Part shown: in pieces, positions 11,797 through 24,120 of the stretch
How positions within the stretch are numbered: position 1 is the first letter of the stretch
Layout of the letters: each line of letters begins with the position of its first letter
Assembly (NCBI GenBank): GCA_012729505.1
Contig: JAAYDA010000046.1
Coordinates: 79,384-125,607, forward strand
DNA: 46,224 nucleotides
Source of the DNA: Syntrophomonadaceae bacterium
Lineage (GTDB): Bacteria; Bacillota; Syntrophomonadia; Syntrophomonadales; DTU052
Reading direction: 5' to 3'
Notes under the pieces: model-generated
Database searches by the model: none
What the model was told of the DNA's origin: nothing
Seen by the model: the letters and a program-made list of their open reading frames with translations, nothing else
Position numbers and translations under genes: made by a program

Positions 11797-11887
11797 AGGA
11801 GTGAGGGGTAAGGAGTGAGGTGCAAGGTGAAAGTATAAAACGTCCCCTTTCTCCTAACCCCTCACTCCTCTCACCTCACGCCTTACT
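11797..11887 (-). repeat. GTGAGGCG-family hairpin repeat, copy 1
   Basis: Read on the minus strand, a purine arm (GAGTAAGGCGTGAGGTGAG and on) is followed by a T-rich loop and a complementary pyrimidine arm ending just before the ribosome binding site of the next gene. The arm contains the stop codon of the upstream glycosyltransferase (TGA at 11876-11878). Orientation relative to the genes is the same as in the other copies. Confidence 0.8.
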
Positions 11888-13000
11888 CTTCACGATCTTC
11901 GCATATACGGCTTCGGTGCGGCGGACCATATTTTCCATGGTAAATTCCAGGGCCTGTTGCTGTCCGTTGGTGATCAGCTGCCGCTGCAGAGCCGGGGTGT
12001 CCAGAAGCCAGGTGATGGCAGTGGCCAAAGCCTGGCTGTCGCCGGGCGTCACCAGAAGACCGCTGTCTCCGTCCCGGATGACCTCCGGTATTCCACCGAC
12101 TTCGGTGGCTACCACCGGAACACCGCAGTACATGGCCTCCAACAGGACCAGTCCCATACCTTCCATGAGAGAGGGGAGACACAACATTTCCATAATAGGA
12201 TATAGTTCACTTATGCGAGGATAGAATCCGGTCATGATCACATGGTTTTCCAGGTTAAGTTCTTTAATGGCTTTTTCGATGTTATTACGTTCCGGACCTT
12301 CGCCTACCAGAAGAAAAACCGCGTCGGGATGGTGGCGAATGATCATAGTGGCGGCCCGCAGCAAATAGATATGCCCTTTGACCAGATGCAGACGGCCTAC
12401 CACAGCGATTACCCGCCGAGACGGTCCTATTCCCAGGCTGTTTCTGACTTCCTCCTGTTTCTTTTCGGGCTCTAACCGGGCCACATCCAGTCCGTTATAG
12501 ATTACCTTAATTCGCTCCGACGGTACTCCCATGGAAATCAGATCCTGTCTGACTGCTCCGGAAATGGCAATAAACTGCTGGGTGTGGGAATTGGTCAGAC
12601 GGGTAAGGAACCGGGCCATTATCGCTTCTCCCGAGAAGGAGTAGTCATAGCGCAGCATACTGTGGGCAGTGGTCACGATGGGCACCTGCTCCCGGTTCCC
12701 GGCGATGCGGGCCACCAGGTTAGCGCGAACCCCGTGAGTGTGGATCACATCAATATTATTATCTCGGATCAAAGCCCGGATCGGGGCAATAGTACCCAGA
12801 TCCAGCTTGTGCCGCATAATTATTTCGTGAGTAGTGATTCCCTCTTTCCGGACCAGGTCCGCAAAAGGACCTCGACACAAGCAGAGGAGCTCGGGAGTAA
12901 ATCCTTCCCGATTCATGAGGCGCATGAGAGCCAGCAGGTGCTGTTCAGCCCCGCCAATCTCACCGCCGCCAATTACCTGCAAAACCTTAGTCTTTTTCAT
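11876..13000 (-). CDS. Glycosyltransferase family 4
   Basis: A 374-aa retaining GT-B transferase. The N-terminal glycine-rich loop is VIGGGEIGGAEQHLLAL; the donor-binding part has LVGEGPERNNIEKA, then PSLMEGMGLVLLEAMYCG with the conserved ExFGxxxxE-type glutamates, and VATEVGGIPEVI. The start is ATG and overlaps the end of the upstream membrane protein gene by 14 bp, so translation is probably coupled. The last codons (KSKA-stop) lie inside hairpin repeat copy 1. It likely adds one sugar to the polymer made by this operon. Confidence 0.9.
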   Translation of the reverse strand: MKKTKVLQVIGGGEIGGAEQHLLALMRLMNREGFTPELLCLCRGPFADLVRKEGITTHEIIMRHKLDLGTIAPIRALIRDNNIDVIHTHGVRANLVARIAGNREQVPIVTTAHSMLRYDYSFSGEAIMARFLTRLTNSHTQQFIAISGAVRQDLISMGVPSERIKVIYNGLDVARLEPEKKQEEVRNSLGIGPSRRVIAVVGRLHLVKGHIYLLRAATMIIRHHPDAVFLLVGEGPERNNIEKAIKELNLENHVIMTGFYPRISELYPIMEMLCLPSLMEGMGLVLLEAMYCGVPVVATEVGGIPEVIRDGDSGLLVTPGDSQALATAITWLLDTPALQRQLITNGQQQALEFTMENMVRRTEAVYAKIVKSKA

Positions 13001-15726: not shown

Positions 15727-16797
15727 GTGGACAGCTCATTAAAAATATTTGTATTTGGTGTAATAATTGCATTTGCTGTTGCGTATTTGATTATGCCACT
15801 AGTGTCCAGGCTGGCTTTTCACATAGGTGCGGTAGATCAGCCTGATGCTCGTAAGGTTCATGACCGGCCTATGCCGCGTCTGGGCGGATTAGGAATCTTC
15901 GTCGCCTTTGTCCTGGCGATTCTGGTGACTATGGATATAGACCGATCTCTGACCGGTATTTTATTGGGAGGATCACTGATTTTTCTGGTAGGAGTCCTGG
16001 ATGATGTTTATGATCTGAGCCCCTGGACTAAATTGGCGGCCCAGATAATAGGGGCCTTGATTGCCGTATATTTTGGAGTCCGGGTCCAGGTAATGACAAA
16101 TCCCTTCGATGGGATGCTGCAGTTGGGCGCCATGAGTATTCCACTAACTATTTTGTGGATAATTGGGGTGACAAATGCGGTGAATCTCATTGACGGCCTG
16201 GATGGCCTGGCGGCGGGAGTCTGTGTTATCGCCGCTATAACAGTAGGTATTGTGGCCTGGCAGGGCCAGCAGACGGCAGTAGCTTTTGCTTGTATGCTGC
16301 TGGCGGCGGCCATCAGCGGCTTTTTGCCCCACAATTTTCATCCGGCCCGGATATTTATGGGAGACTCAGGCTCAATGTTCCTGGGATTTGTCTTATCTTG
16401 TCTGTCCATATCCGGACTGGCTAAAGGAGCGACACTGATATCATTATTTGTCCCGGTATTGATTTTGGGCATTCCTGTTTTTGACACCCTGTTTGCCATT
16501 GTGCGGCGGGTAAATAATCAGGCTCCCATATTTAGCCCCGATAAAGCCCACCTCCATCATCGTTTGATGGATATGGGCCTCAGCCATCAGGGCAGTGTCC
16601 TGGCAATATATGCGATAAGTGCCATGTTGGGCGGAGCGGCGGTAATCATGACCAATGTCACCAGCCCTAAAGCGATAATGATCCTGGGATTGGTGATGGT
16701 GTTGATGGTAATTGGCGCCAGCCGGATTGGGATAGTCAGCGGAAAGACCACTAAGGCTTCTGGTAGTAAGGCGGGAGGCGTGAGGCGTGAAGCGTGA
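15727..16797 (+). CDS. Undecaprenyl-phosphate sugar-1-phosphate transferase (TagO/WecA/MraY family)
   Basis: A 356-aa polytopic enzyme that starts polymer assembly by moving a HexNAc-1-P from its UDP form to undecaprenyl phosphate. Family motifs are all visible: GAVDQPDARKVHDRPMPRLGG near the start, DDVYDL, NAVNLIDGLDGLAAG, FMGDSGSMF and the C-terminal HLHHRL. These fit the TagO/WecA branch better than MraY. The start is GTG with GAGGGAG upstream. The last eight or so residues (KAGGVRREA) and the stop codon are encoded by the hairpin repeat, so the C-terminus was probably altered by repeat insertion. Confidence 0.9.
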   Translation: MDSSLKIFVFGVIIAFAVAYLIMPLVSRLAFHIGAVDQPDARKVHDRPMPRLGGLGIFVAFVLAILVTMDIDRSLTGILLGGSLIFLVGVLDDVYDLSPWTKLAAQIIGALIAVYFGVRVQVMTNPFDGMLQLGAMSIPLTILWIIGVTNAVNLIDGLDGLAAGVCVIAAITVGIVAWQGQQTAVAFACMLLAAAISGFLPHNFHPARIFMGDSGSMFLGFVLSCLSISGLAKGATLISLFVPVLILGIPVFDTLFAIVRRVNNQAPIFSPDKAHLHHRLMDMGLSHQGSVLAIYAISAMLGGAAVIMTNVTSPKAIMILGLVMVLMVIGASRIGIVSGKTTKASGSKAGGVRREA

Positions 16798-16810
16798 GGC
16801 GTTAGGAGTT

Positions 16811-16885
16811 AGGCAGGCGGAAGCCAAATCTCACTTAAGAGATTTGTGCTTCCCGCTTGGTTCAGCGTGGAACGCTGAACTTCCT
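16811..16885 (+). repeat. 75-bp double-hairpin element, copy A
   Basis: Stem 1 pairs GCGGAAGC and AAATCTC with GAGATTT and GCTTCCCGC around ACTTAA. Stem 2 is GTTCAGCG / CGCTGAAC with loop TGGAA (16860-16880). A second copy at 22892-22966 is nearly identical, but stem 2 there reads GTTCGACG / CGTCGAAC: two base pairs changed on both sides, keeping the stem. Confidence 0.85.
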
Positions 16886-16915
16886 TTGGTGACACGGGAG
16901 AAACGGGGAAACGAA

Positions 16916-16954
16916 AACGCAGATGAACACAGATTATTATGATGAACGCAGATA
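16916..16954 (+). repeat. Short CGCAGATGAACAC tandem tract
   Basis: AACGCAGATGAACACAGATT is followed by a second, similar unit (GATGAACGCAGATAG). This kind of tract is a common intergenic repeat in anaerobic bacteria. A shorter piece (AACGCAGATGGGAAC) appears near 22855, beside the other nested element. Confidence 0.55.
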
Positions 16955-17027
16955 GAATAAGGGAGAGGTGAGAAGAGTAAGTGGAATTTATTTCATCTCA
17001 CTCCTGACGCCTCACACCTGACGCTAA

Positions 17028-17036
17028 TGGTATAAT
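17028..17036 (+). promoter_or_regulatory. Extended -10 promoter of the LCP gene
   Basis: TGGTATAAT is a perfect extended -10 directly after the pyrimidine arm of the repeat. No good -35 hexamer is seen at the right distance; the region that would hold it is the repeat itself. Transcription would start near 17043. Confidence 0.55.
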
Positions 17037-18950: not shown

Positions 18951-19000
18951 ATTCTCATTTTGCGGGAGGCGAAAAGAAGAGTCAACTATTATTTTGTGGA

Positions 19001-19146
19001 GAGGCGTAAGGAGTGAGGCGTGAAGCGTGAGGAGGAGTGAGGCGGGAGGAGGAGTGAAGGGGGAGGAGTAAGGCGTGAGGCGTAAGGAGTGAGGCGTGAA
19101 GGGGGATTTTATATTTTCGCCTCACACCTTGCGCCTCACTCCTCAC
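19001..19146 (+). repeat. GTGAGGCG-family hairpin repeat, copy 3 (longest purine arm)
   Basis: About 100 bp of purine arm, built from many variants of GGAGTGAGGCGTGA, is followed by a T-rich loop (GGGGGATTTTATATTTT) and a 34-bp pyrimidine arm (CGCCTCACACC...CTCACTCCTCAC). The arm is far longer than its partner, so it seems to have grown by tandem duplication. The orientation matches the downstream dehydratase gene. Confidence 0.8.
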
Positions 19147-19184
19147 TATAAAGGGTTTTACATGTTTATAAAGAAACAGTTTAT

Positions 19185-21030: not shown

Positions 21031-22350
21031 ATGTCCATAAAAGAGTTACTGCTGAACAAAATTGCCGGCAAAGAAATCATTGTAGGAGTTGTGGGTCTCG
21101 GTTATGTGGGCCTGCCTTTGGCGGTAGAAAAGGCTAAGGCCGGATATAAAACTATTGGTTTTGACATCCAGCCTCAGAAGGTGGATATGGTCAATCAGGG
21201 CATTAACTATATTGGAGATGTGGTAGACGCTGAGCTGAGTGAGCTGGTAGCCGGGGGAATGCTGTCTGCTACCATAGATTTTTCCTTTATCAAAGATGTA
21301 GATTTTGTGGCTATTGCCGTGCCCACACCCCTGGATCAATACCAGCAGCCAGATATCAGCTATGTCAGAAGCAGCACCATGGAAATAGCGCGTTATATAA
21401 AGAGAGGCAGCATAGTAGTTCTGGAATCGACTACCTATCCAGGAACCACCGAAGAATTGCTGCTGCCCCTGCTGGAAGAAGGTTCAGGACTAAAATGCGG
21501 GGAGGACTTCTACCTCGGCTTTTCACCGGAGCGGGTTGATCCGGGGAACCGTATCTATCAAACTAAAAACACTCCCAAGGTTGTGGGAGGAGCAGGCCGT
21601 GATGCCACAGAAGTCATTGCCGCCTTATACCGCAACGTCTTGGAGGGTGAGGTATTCGAAGCCAGTTCTCCTCGGGTGGCCGAGATGGAGAAAATACTGG
21701 AGAATACCTATCGCAATGTCAACATAGGACTCATCAATGAGCTGGCCATCCTCTGCCACAAAATGGACATAAACATCTGGGAAGTCATCGAAGCAGCCAA
21801 AACCAAACCTTTTGGTTTCACACCCTTCTATCCCGGACCCGGCCTGGGAGGACACTGCATACCTCTGGACCCGTATTACCTATCCTGGAAAGCACGGGAA
21901 TACGGCTTCCATACCTCTATGATCGAAGCCTCCATGATGATAAACGATAAAATGCCGGAATACACTGTCGAACGGGCCGGCAAGATATTAAACCGCTTTA
22001 AAAAGGCCCTTAACGGCGCACAAATACTTATCCTGGGTGTGGCCTACAAACAGGATATCGACGATTACCGGGAAAGCCCGGCCATCCGGGTCATAGAAGA
22101 ATTCCATAAAACCGGGGCCGAAATTGAATTCTATGATCCATACATTAAAGAATTCAAAGACAAAGGTAAGACCATGACAGGCTTAACTGAGCTCACAGCC
22201 GAAAAAATACATTCCGCAGACCTGGTAGTAATCACCACCGCTCATACTAAGGTAGACTATGACCTGGTGCAGCAAAACGCTAAGGCCGTTTTTGATACTA
22301 AGAACGCCATGAAAAATGTGAAAAACCGGGAGAATGTGGAACTTTTGTGA
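21031..22350 (+). CDS. wbpA: UDP-N-acetylglucosamine 6-dehydrogenase, WbpA-like
   Basis: A 439-aa NAD-dependent dehydrogenase, close in length and motifs to WbpA: GVVGLGYVGLPLAVEKAKAG near the start, ESTTYPGTTEELLLPLLEEG, KPFGFTPFYPGPGLGGHCI with catalytic Cys276, and a C-terminal GVAYKQDIDDYRESPA. It would oxidise UDP-GlcNAc to UDP-GlcNAcA, the first step to UDP-GlcNAc(3NAc)A. The genes for the next three steps lie downstream, separated by a four-helix-bundle gene and repeats. The stop codon TGA is the first base triplet of hairpin repeat copy 4. Confidence 0.85.
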   Translation: MSIKELLLNKIAGKEIIVGVVGLGYVGLPLAVEKAKAGYKTIGFDIQPQKVDMVNQGINYIGDVVDAELSELVAGGMLSATIDFSFIKDVDFVAIAVPTPLDQYQQPDISYVRSSTMEIARYIKRGSIVVLESTTYPGTTEELLLPLLEEGSGLKCGEDFYLGFSPERVDPGNRIYQTKNTPKVVGGAGRDATEVIAALYRNVLEGEVFEASSPRVAEMEKILENTYRNVNIGLINELAILCHKMDINIWEVIEAAKTKPFGFTPFYPGPGLGGHCIPLDPYYLSWKAREYGFHTSMIEASMMINDKMPEYTVERAGKILNRFKKALNGAQILILGVAYKQDIDDYRESPAIRVIEEFHKTGAEIEFYDPYIKEFKDKGKTMTGLTELTAEKIHSADLVVITTAHTKVDYDLVQQNAKAVFDTKNAMKNVKNRENVELL

Positions 22351-22440
22351 GGAGTAAGGCGTGAGGCGAGAGGCGTGAGGCGTGAGGTGAGAGGCGCAAG
22401 TGGATTTTATTCACCTTACACCTAACGCCTCACTCCTCAC
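22347..22440 (+). repeat. GTGAGGCG-family hairpin repeat, copy 4
   Basis: The purine arm GTGAGGAGTAAGGCGTGAGG (from 22347) pairs with the final arm CGCCTCACTCCTCAC (to 22440); the loop region is GTGGATTTTATTCACC. Bases 22389-22419 are identical to 22805-22835 on the other side of the small gene that follows. Confidence 0.85.
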
Positions 22441-22457
22441 GAAAATGGAGGGATGAC

Positions 22458-22802
22458 GTGAGACAACATCATAAGCTTTTGGTTTGGCAGGAATCAATAA
22501 GGTTAGTTAAACAAGTTTATGAAATTAGCTCACATTATCCTAAAGAAGAACTCTATGGAATTGCAGCGCAAATGCGTAGAGCAGCAGTATCGATACCAAG
22601 TAACATAGCAGAAGGAGCTGCAAGAGATAGCTCAACTGAATTTGCCAGATTTTTAATTATAGCCAGAGGGTCGTTAAGTGAACTTGAAACACAGATAATA
22701 ATAGCTCAAGAGCTAGGTTATTATCATGACAACACAGTGCTTGGGCAAATAGAAAAAGTGTTTGCACTAATTGGAGGATTAATTAGGAAGATAAGGAGTT
22801 AG
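22458..22802 (+). CDS. Four-helix-bundle protein (S23/IVP-type family)
   Basis: A 114-aa all-helical protein of the family first seen in 23S rRNA intervening sequences. The signature is clear: LLVWQESIRLVKQVYEIS, then MRRAAVSIPSNIAEGAARD, ARGSLSELETQIIIAQELGY and a final basic helix. The start is GTG with GGAGGG upstream. The function is unknown; related proteins bind nucleic acid or form pentamers. The stop TAG lies inside repeat copy 5, and the gene is flanked by two repeats sharing a 31-bp exact block, so it looks like a cassette inserted between wbpA and wbpB. No reverse transcriptase or rRNA is nearby. Confidence 0.92.
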   Translation: MRQHHKLLVWQESIRLVKQVYEISSHYPKEELYGIAAQMRRAAVSIPSNIAEGAARDSSTEFARFLIIARGSLSELETQIIIAQELGYYHDNTVLGQIEKVFALIGGLIRKIRS

Positions 22803-22857
22803 GAGAGAGGCGCAAGTGGATTTTATTCACCTTACTCCTAACCCCTTACCCCTAACG
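22792..22857 (+). repeat. GTGAGGCG-family hairpin repeat, copy 5
   Basis: A shorter copy with purine arm TAAGGAGTTAGGAGAGAGG, loop AAGTGGATTTTATTCACC and pyrimidine arm TTACTCCTAACCCC. The first bases encode the end of the four-helix-bundle gene. Pairing of the arms is looser than in copy 4. Confidence 0.8.
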
Positions 22858-22875
22858 CAGATGGGAACATAATGA

Positions 22876-23039
22876 TAAGGAGAAAGGAGTAAGGCAGGCG
22901 GGAGCCAAATCTCACTTAAGAGATTTGTGCTTCCCGCTTGGTTCGACGTGGATCGTCGAACTTCCTATGGAGAAACAGGAGGCGTAAAGAGTTAGGAGCA
23001 AGGATTTTTTTCACCTCACACCTAACGCCTCACTCCTCA
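22876..23039 (+). repeat. GTGAGGCG-family hairpin repeat, copy 6 (composite)
   Basis: The purine arm (AAGGAGAAAGGAGTAAGGC) is interrupted by the second 75-bp double hairpin, resumes as GGCGTAAAGAGTTAGGAGC, and is followed by a T-rich loop and the pyrimidine arm CACCTCACACCTAACGCCTC, which ends 7 bp before the wbpB-like ATG. The layout matches copy 2. Confidence 0.8.
22892..22966 (+). repeat. 75-bp double-hairpin element, copy B
   Basis: It matches 16811-16885 at all but a few positions. Stem 2 is GTTCGACG / CGTCGAAC with loop TGGAT (22941-22961). Compared with copy A, two adjacent pairs are exchanged on both strands (A-T to G-C, G-C to A-T), so the stem is kept. Confidence 0.85.
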
Positions 23040-23046
23040 TGAAAAT

Positions 23047-24120
23047 ATGAATTATGCGATAATCGGTTGTGGTAGGATATCGCCCAATCACATTATGGCC
23101 GCGATTGAAAACAATCTGAACATCGTTGCTCTCTGTGATCTTATTCCTGCCAGCATGGAAGATAAGATTGAGAAATGTGGTTTGCCTGCAGATATAAGCC
23201 AATACACCGATTACAGAGAAATGCTGGATCAGGAAGAAATTGATCTCATTGCTATTGCCACTGAGAGCGGCAAACACGCTGTAATTGCCTTAGATTGCAT
23301 AGAAAAAGGCATTAATGTGATTATTGAAAAACCCATAGCTCTTTCTCTGGAAGATGCCGACGCCATTATAGCTGCTGCCGACAGGAAAGGGGTACTGGTT
23401 TCAGCCTGTCATCAGAACCGTTTCAATAAATCTGTCCAGAAGATCCGGGAGGCAGTAGAAACCGGACGCTTCGGCAGGCTGTTCCACGGTACAGCTCATA
23501 TTCGCTGGAACCGGGGGCCATCCTATTATAAACAGGCACCCTGGCGGGGTACCTGGGAGCAGGATGGCGGTGCCTTGATGAACCAGTGCATTCATAATAT
23601 TGATCTACTTCGCTGGATGATGGGTGATGAGATAACTGAAGCCTTTGCCTATACCGACCGCTTGAACCATGATTACATTGAAGCTGAGGACCTGGGAATA
23701 GCTCTCATCAAATTCAAAAACGGGGCCTATGGCATTATTGAAGGGACTATCAATGTTTATCCGGCTAATCTGGAGGAAACCCTGTATATTTTCGGAGAAA
23801 AAGGTACTGTCAAAGCGGGAGGTCATTCGGTCAACATCATCGAAGAATGGTTCTTTGCCGACCAGTCTGATGACCCAGAAGCAGTTAAGGCAGAATATCA
23901 CGAGAACCCGCCCAACATATACGGCTTTGGACACAAGCCTTTATATGCCGATGTAATAGACGCTATAAGGAATAAGCGTAAACCTTATATAGATGCAGAG
24001 GCTGGCAGGAGAGCCATAGAAGTTGTTTTGGGGATATATAAATCGGCGGTCGAAGGAAGGCCGGTAAAGCTTTCCCTGGACAAATGCAATACTCGGGACT
24101 TTAAAGGCAGGTTTGATTGA
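23047..24120 (+). CDS. wbpB: Gfo/Idh/MocA oxidoreductase, WbpB-like 3-dehydrogenase
   Basis: A 357-aa NAD-dependent oxidoreductase with an N-terminal Rossmann motif (YAIIGCGRISPNHIMAAIEN), the family motif IIEKPIALSLEDADA with its catalytic lysine, and HQNRFNKSVQKIREAV. In the Wbp pathway this enzyme oxidises C3 of UDP-GlcNAcA, giving the substrate of the WbpE aminotransferase. The role rests mainly on its neighbours: wbpA-like upstream, acetyltransferase and aminotransferase downstream. The pyrimidine arm of repeat copy 6 ends just before the start, and no Shine-Dalgarno sequence is visible, unlike nearly every other gene here. Confidence 0.8.
   Translation: MNYAIIGCGRISPNHIMAAIENNLNIVALCDLIPASMEDKIEKCGLPADISQYTDYREMLDQEEIDLIAIATESGKHAVIALDCIEKGINVIIEKPIALSLEDADAIIAAADRKGVLVSACHQNRFNKSVQKIREAVETGRFGRLFHGTAHIRWNRGPSYYKQAPWRGTWEQDGGALMNQCIHNIDLLRWMMGDEITEAFAYTDRLNHDYIEAEDLGIALIKFKNGAYGIIEGTINVYPANLEETLYIFGEKGTVKAGGHSVNIIEEWFFADQSDDPEAVKAEYHENPPNIYGFGHKPLYADVIDAIRNKRKPYIDAEAGRRAIEVVLGIYKSAVEGRPVKLSLDKCNTRDFKGRFD

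Follow-up and report, generated by a model that had tools for sequence, protein, structure and literature searches.

S23 genes framed by inverted heptamer arms point to a probable mobile element family in bacterial operons and structured RNAs

The S23-type gene that lies between a wbpA-like and a wbpB-like gene in the window (the whole stretch of 46,224 nucleotides of a Syntrophomonadaceae bacterium analysed here) probably belongs to an element that is, or once was, mobile and that is of one kind with the S23-encoding intervening sequence (IVS) of 23S rRNA, inserted in a nucleotide-sugar operon and accompanied by derivatives that lack the S23 gene. The unit would consist of a heptamer arm, an S23 gene read in the direction of the host operon, and an inverted heptamer arm. 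The original prediction of a cassette inserted in this operon is supported by the comparisons described below, albeit with different borders.

The S23 gene (positions 22458–22802; all features are on the forward strand) has a GTG start with a GGAGG ribosome-binding site a short way upstream, and encodes a four-helix-bundle protein of 114 residues that belongs to PF05635 (E-value 3.7e-35; 120.8 bits, curated cut-off 33.8) and to TIGR02436 (1.7e-34; 118.3 bits, cut-off 24), and is a homologue of the structurally solved XCC0516 (PDB 2gsc, E-value 1.8e-31). It is preceded by a wbpA-like gene for a nucleotide-sugar dehydrogenase (21031–22350; PF03721, PF00984 and PF03720, TIGR03026) and followed by a wbpB-like gene for a Gfo/Idh/MocA oxidoreductase (23047–24120; PF01408, PF02894), after which come genes for a hexapeptide acetyltransferase and then an aminotransferase (wbpD/E-like). 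No rRNA was identified in the window at the Rfam gathering score, the S23 neighbours being protein genes, and the element does not lie in helix 9, 25 or 45 of 23S rRNA, where an IVS of that molecule has its site.

Both flanks of the S23 gene carry members of one hairpin family, as originally predicted, and the hairpins of the window are built from 7-bp units of the GTGAGGC type. The upstream hairpin H1 (22347–22441; heptamer family D1) has a minimum free energy of -47.6 kcal/mol and a 5' half formed by a purine-rich heptamer arm (GTGAGGAGTAAGGCGTGAGGC...), with the TGA stop of the wbpA-like gene (22348–22350) inside the first repeat unit of this arm. Arms often start where the preceding gene ends in its stop codon (also at loci L063 and L132), the first unit supplying or following the stop. 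The downstream hairpin H2 (22792–22850), which is similar to H1, overlaps the 3' end of the S23 gene. Relative to dinucleotide shuffles, the folds have z-scores of -6.5 (22347–22445) and -3.6 (22788–22860). The apices of H1 and H2 hold the two copies of an exact 31-bp direct repeat (22389–22419 and 22805–22835), which direct reading confirmed to be identical without a mismatch. It forms the core of a longer repeat (22378–22448 versus 22794–22864, 86% identical over 71 nt), with diverged copies at 22978–23048 (69%) and 16960–17030 (61%). The S23 stop codon (22800–22802), which had been placed in the downstream copy, does fall within H2, but ends 2 nt before the exact 31-bp copy.

In addition, a pyrimidine-rich inverted heptamer arm is found further downstream (23008–23041), which pairs with 22362–22390 across the S23 gene; the best inverted pair enclosing the gene is 22362–22390 with 23011–23039, leaving a loop of 620 nt. 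The S23 open reading frame of the window is thereby situated in the loop of an inverted-repeat stem, as in an IVS, although each flank can also fold alone. Since the gene is flanked by two complete hairpins plus outer arms, there is more than one candidate border. The 31-bp repeat is beyond chance, and its two copies are dependent on their own hairpin family. Its interpretation as a cassette border or target-site duplication was dropped because the repeat represents the tip of hairpins of one local family, and because relatives do not as a rule carry direct repeats.

The generality of this anatomy was examined in 80 relatives of the window protein from named genomes of many phyla, of which 76 were usable; these loci are the best matches to the window S23 protein, and hence a non-random set that is not fully independent by descent. 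With 326 other genes on the same contigs as controls, 43% of the 76 S23 genes had an array of period 7 on their upstream side and 47% had one on their downstream side, against 4.6% and 7.7% of the controls. Inverted arms across the gene were present in 64% versus 1.8% (Mann-Whitney p 1e-26), with 7 as the dominant period, and the upstream arm was purine-rich in 91% of cases. Direct repeats across the S23 gene, by contrast, were not significantly enriched (13% versus 2.8% at one threshold, Mann-Whitney p 0.38), and the family arms are inverted, which leaves the direct-repeat boundary proposed at the outset unsupported. In an enlarged set, 78 of 114 elements had inverted arms, and a clear period could be assigned to 80 of them (7 in 65, 8 in nine, 11 in three, 4 in two and 9 in one). 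Inverted arms also occurred in all five cyanobacterial plasmid copies examined, which were not chosen by their flanks. The type of arm tracks the relatedness of the proteins significantly but weakly (Mantel r 0.125, p 0.003). The clearest case of arm and protein going together is a clade with 11-bp instead of 7-bp units, common to three families (L137, L139, L190).

S23 genes are located between genes that are usually adjacent, i.e. sdhA/sdhB, hemC/hemE, gmk/nadD and rfbB/rfbA as judged by reading the neighbour proteins, and nrdB/nrdA, cas10/cmr3 and cas6/cas4 by annotation. The S23 genes at cas10-cmr3 and cas6-cas4 (L117, L118) reside on cyanobacterial plasmids. In Dokdonella and Luteimonas (L052, L076), relatives of Xanthomonas, the S23 arms consist of GGGATTC / GGGAATC units, 3' of an accB-like gene; this arm heptamer is the same as the dispersed Xanthomonas repeat described in PMC4692102.

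One alternative is that the arrays came first: heptamers would expand independently, e.g. by slippage, and S23 genes would insert in or near them by repeat recombination or target preference, the protein having no part in their spread. Random landing in an array would not, however, place arms in inverted orientation across the gene. Furthermore, arm, gene and arm form one homologous block at unrelated loci of different families. Two genomes from different families (G019 and G045) share 452 bp with 79.7% identity, in which homology starts and stops at the arms while the neighbours are unrelated, and loci from Atribacterota and Omnitrophota are homologous over arm, gene and arm only (74%). As far as comparison of sequences goes, the anatomy, its generality and the joint arrival of arms and gene are established. 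The site between flgK and flgL is compatible with either order of events: two genomes (G015 and G098) carry the full element there, whereas a third of the same genus (G132) has only the downstream array, without an upstream arm or gene, a state that fits partial loss as well as prior presence of the array. Both G015 and G098 also have an internally deleted element (L207, L208), which retains the two arms but no more of the S23 gene than its C-terminal end. No target-site duplication was seen at the flgK-flgL site or at the RNase P site described below, the borders being ambiguous inside the tandem repeats, and no fixed insertion sequence was found among the compared sites.

Structured RNAs provide further insertion sites. 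Several S23 genes from the phylum of the window, two of them in genomes of its order, lie in 23S rRNA at the classical IVS position, and the stems of these elements are also heptamers. Identical S23 copies within a genome were considered as proof of transposition and rejected, as these copies lay in duplicated rRNA operons. In two genomes (G050 and G123; L200, L201) an S23 element with the same kind of heptamer stems is found inside the RNase P RNA gene. Their relative within the genus (G088, L199) has at this site an ordinary short hairpin (GGCGCGAAGCGCC), judged from its position apparently helix P12, and no heptamers; in G050 this hairpin is replaced by about 430 bp comprising a heptamer arm, the S23 gene and an inverse arm. 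Such an empty site, devoid of heptamers, speaks against arrays having preceded the gene. In a tree of the proteins, albeit based on few columns and with many unresolved forks, the copies from 23S rRNA and RNase P RNA group in a single clade (100/100), in which those from RNase P are nested, apart from the intergenic copies that make up most of the other S23 genes and in which phyla are mixed.

The association was also surveyed at the level of genomes, as the original prediction had proposed. Among 249 genomes of the window's phylum, with PF05635 as the marker for S23 and six successive GKRRNNN units as that for an array, arrays were found in 24 of the 45 S23-positive and 21 of the 204 S23-negative genomes (odds ratio 10, p 1e-9, kinship among genomes being ignored; the tally takes in 45 of the 46 array-positive genomes), whereas a control pattern of period 8 did not differ (4/45 versus 15/204, p 0.76). 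Four sister genomes from the window's family lack PF05635 and have only 0–1 matches each to a pattern of five units, and show no array expansion; the source genome has 53 (overlapping) matches to this pattern. This co-occurrence of S23 and array-only sites makes it plausible that the protein helps the arrays to spread. The arrays in those 21 S23-negative genomes can be put forward for independent expansion, as can the many arrays of single orientation without S23; one genome (G135) contains 40 array matches and no S23 gene. Arrays lying far from the S23 gene on its contig fit the arms of their own genome only moderately better than arms of others (at 14 loci, a median of 16% of the others were equal). 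Taking the inverted arms, the shared homologous blocks and the empty RNase P site together with these observations, we consider it unlikely that the arrays came first.

Candidate derivatives without an S23 gene occur in the source genome, which has about 20 other heptamer array sites. Solo heptamer hairpins occur in the window at 18999–19147 (z -4.5) and 11797–11893 (z -5.3). A dispersed double stem-loop of 75 nt, D4, is found beside heptamer arrays in at least ten copies in the source genome, in a search that covered the DNA near arrays (22892–22966, 16811–16885, L248, L021, L025, L015, L009, L012, L030 and L238), and its stems show compensatory changes. At the best-preserved sites D4 is located between an arm and an inverse arm, in place of the S23 gene, as in the S23-less relative at 16752–17018, where the D4 copy at 16811–16885 is enclosed in this way. 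D4 has the look of a passenger that these arms carry in the absence of S23. Neither the hairpins nor D4 correspond to an Rfam family, and sub-threshold matches to microRNAs were discarded as chance fits to hairpins. At L009 (G000:C4:8403-8647) the heptamers are arranged in a 35-bp higher-order repeat (5 x 7).

A second alternative is a sub-hypothesis of the mobile-element reading, in which S23, which we take to be a relative of the DGR protein Avd, would act with a reverse transcriptase supplied in trans, which would turn the RNA hairpin into DNA again. Matches to RVT_1 are indeed more common in S23-positive genomes (33/45 versus 96/204, odds ratio 3.1, p 0.0016), and in gaps between co-directional genes 40 of 45 S23 genes are in sense. 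This association may, however, reflect only the load of mobile elements, ordinary operon genes are also in sense, and 12 S23-positive genomes have no RVT_1 match, leaving a strict need for reverse transcriptase unsupported. No reverse transcriptase was present among the ten window proteins scanned, while the source genome has two RVT_1 matches, one of which, among the matches listed, is on another contig. Copying by reverse transcriptase appears quite improbable.

Thirdly, the S23 gene and its hairpins could serve to regulate the polysaccharide operon as a module passed on by vertical descent, with the hairpins as RNase III sites, attenuators or elements of translational coupling, and without any mobility of relevance. 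The wbp site itself gives this some ground. In G213, which belongs to the order of the source genome, wbpA is followed by an S23 gene that is 66% identical to that of the window, and then by a wbpD-like gene; this S23 protein is closer to the window copy than its neighbour genes are to theirs (54–55%). An S23 gene following wbpA in both genomes means that the window copy need not be a recent arrival, and the insertion may date from long ago, or may be carried along when the cluster moves. The position of the hairpins between operon genes, and the compensatory changes of D4, as in functional RNAs, agree with a regulatory function. On the other hand, unrelated operons as well as 23S rRNA and RNase P RNA show the same anatomy, and a genome of the window's own family (G001), with a wbpB protein 86% identical to that of the window, has wbpA and wbpB but no S23 gene anywhere. 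Its wbpA-wbpB gap contains no hairpin and is likely the empty site that had been sought in related genomes, although it is not a clean one because 129 N cover the end of wbpA. A purely regulatory, immobile module is thus very unlikely. At L193 (G213:C59:3784-4240), G213 also has a fragment of S23 followed by a heptamer array and then a further S23 gene, a tandem arrangement that looks as though an element had inserted into an existing one. Finally, readings as a defence system (no PADLOC match) or as phage cargo (no match in 50,697 phage records) were rejected.

The mobile-element reading connects several known systems. An IVS of 23S rRNA is cut out by RNase III and the ends are not religated. 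S23-encoding IVSs of 23S rRNA are known from Leptospira, Coxiella, Xanthomonas and Brucella, and both these IVSs with their S23 open reading frames and their excision by RNase III have been published (PMC4990558). For the S23 protein of Xanthomonas, a pentamer composed of four-helix bundles has been described, and heptameric repeats (GACAGAT) have been noted upstream of Coxiella S23 (PMC4990558); a mobile origin of S23 IVSs has been proposed since the early 1990s, as cited in PMC4990558. The element of the window resembles an S23 IVS in its protein family, in having the open reading frame in the loop of an inverted-repeat stem and in its sense orientation, but differs from it in being intergenic, outside rRNA, and accompanied by S23-less hairpins.

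Dispersed heptamers have been described from Xanthomonas (GGGAATC) and Nostoc (GGGGA(T/C)T), each Xanthomonas genome having 70–75 close convergent pairs, without S23 and generally without a tie to mobile elements (PMC4692102). Short tandem repeats within cyanobacterial RNase P RNA are among the work cited in PMC2858038. Like the S23 arms, the short tandemly repeated repetitive (STRR) sequences of cyanobacteria are short tandem repeats that also occur within RNase P RNA, and no link between STRR and S23 genes was found in the literature searched. The STRR units are heptamers, and Vioque reportedly described them in 1997, including those in RNase P RNA. There is also a likeness to REPIN/RAYT systems and MITEs, in which small dispersed palindromic units accompany one gene that possibly mobilises them. 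Unlike the gene in these systems, S23 lacks a transposase domain, and the unit of the S23 element is a tandem 7-mer with a sequence that varies by lineage; neither a target duplication nor a conserved end sequence was seen, the borders being ambiguous within the tandem repeats. The S23 protein matches no transposase family in Pfam or NCBIfam, as a cognate transposase of a transposon or MITE would, and the gene adjacent to the palindromes is S23, without any other family match, instead of the Y1 transposase of a RAYT system. A literature search that did not extend to preprints and most subscription journals found no publication linking heptamer arms to S23 genes located outside rRNA.

How such an element could move is suggested by its architecture. 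The two arms would pair in RNA to form a long stem with the open reading frame in its loop, so that insertion would be tolerated in structured RNAs and between co-transcribed genes. S23 encodes no known catalytic domain, and its likeliest role would be to bind the arms as RNA or single-stranded DNA. We infer that it also serves to spread the arms, and propose that S23 together with host enzymes would promote their copying, while the S23-less hairpins and the D4 double hairpin may be derivatives mobilised in trans.

S23 genes, which are known chiefly from insertions in bacterial rRNA, are present in many bacterial genomes, where they are usually annotated only as "four helix bundle protein". 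The recurrence of the same anatomy suggests a widespread and little-noticed family of mobile elements around S23 across many phyla. More tentatively, and with considerable doubt, S23 could represent phylum-spanning minimal mobile elements, consisting of one small non-catalytic protein and inverted tandem-repeat arms. These would insert into operons, 23S rRNA and RNase P RNA, and would both create the long-known heptamer arrays and spread them, along with D4 and other RNA-like passengers, by a mechanism unlike that of any described transposon. If S23 is the core of a mobile element with heptamer-array arms, three separate puzzles would merge into one, namely what S23 does, how the IVSs of 23S rRNA arose and where dispersed heptamers come from.
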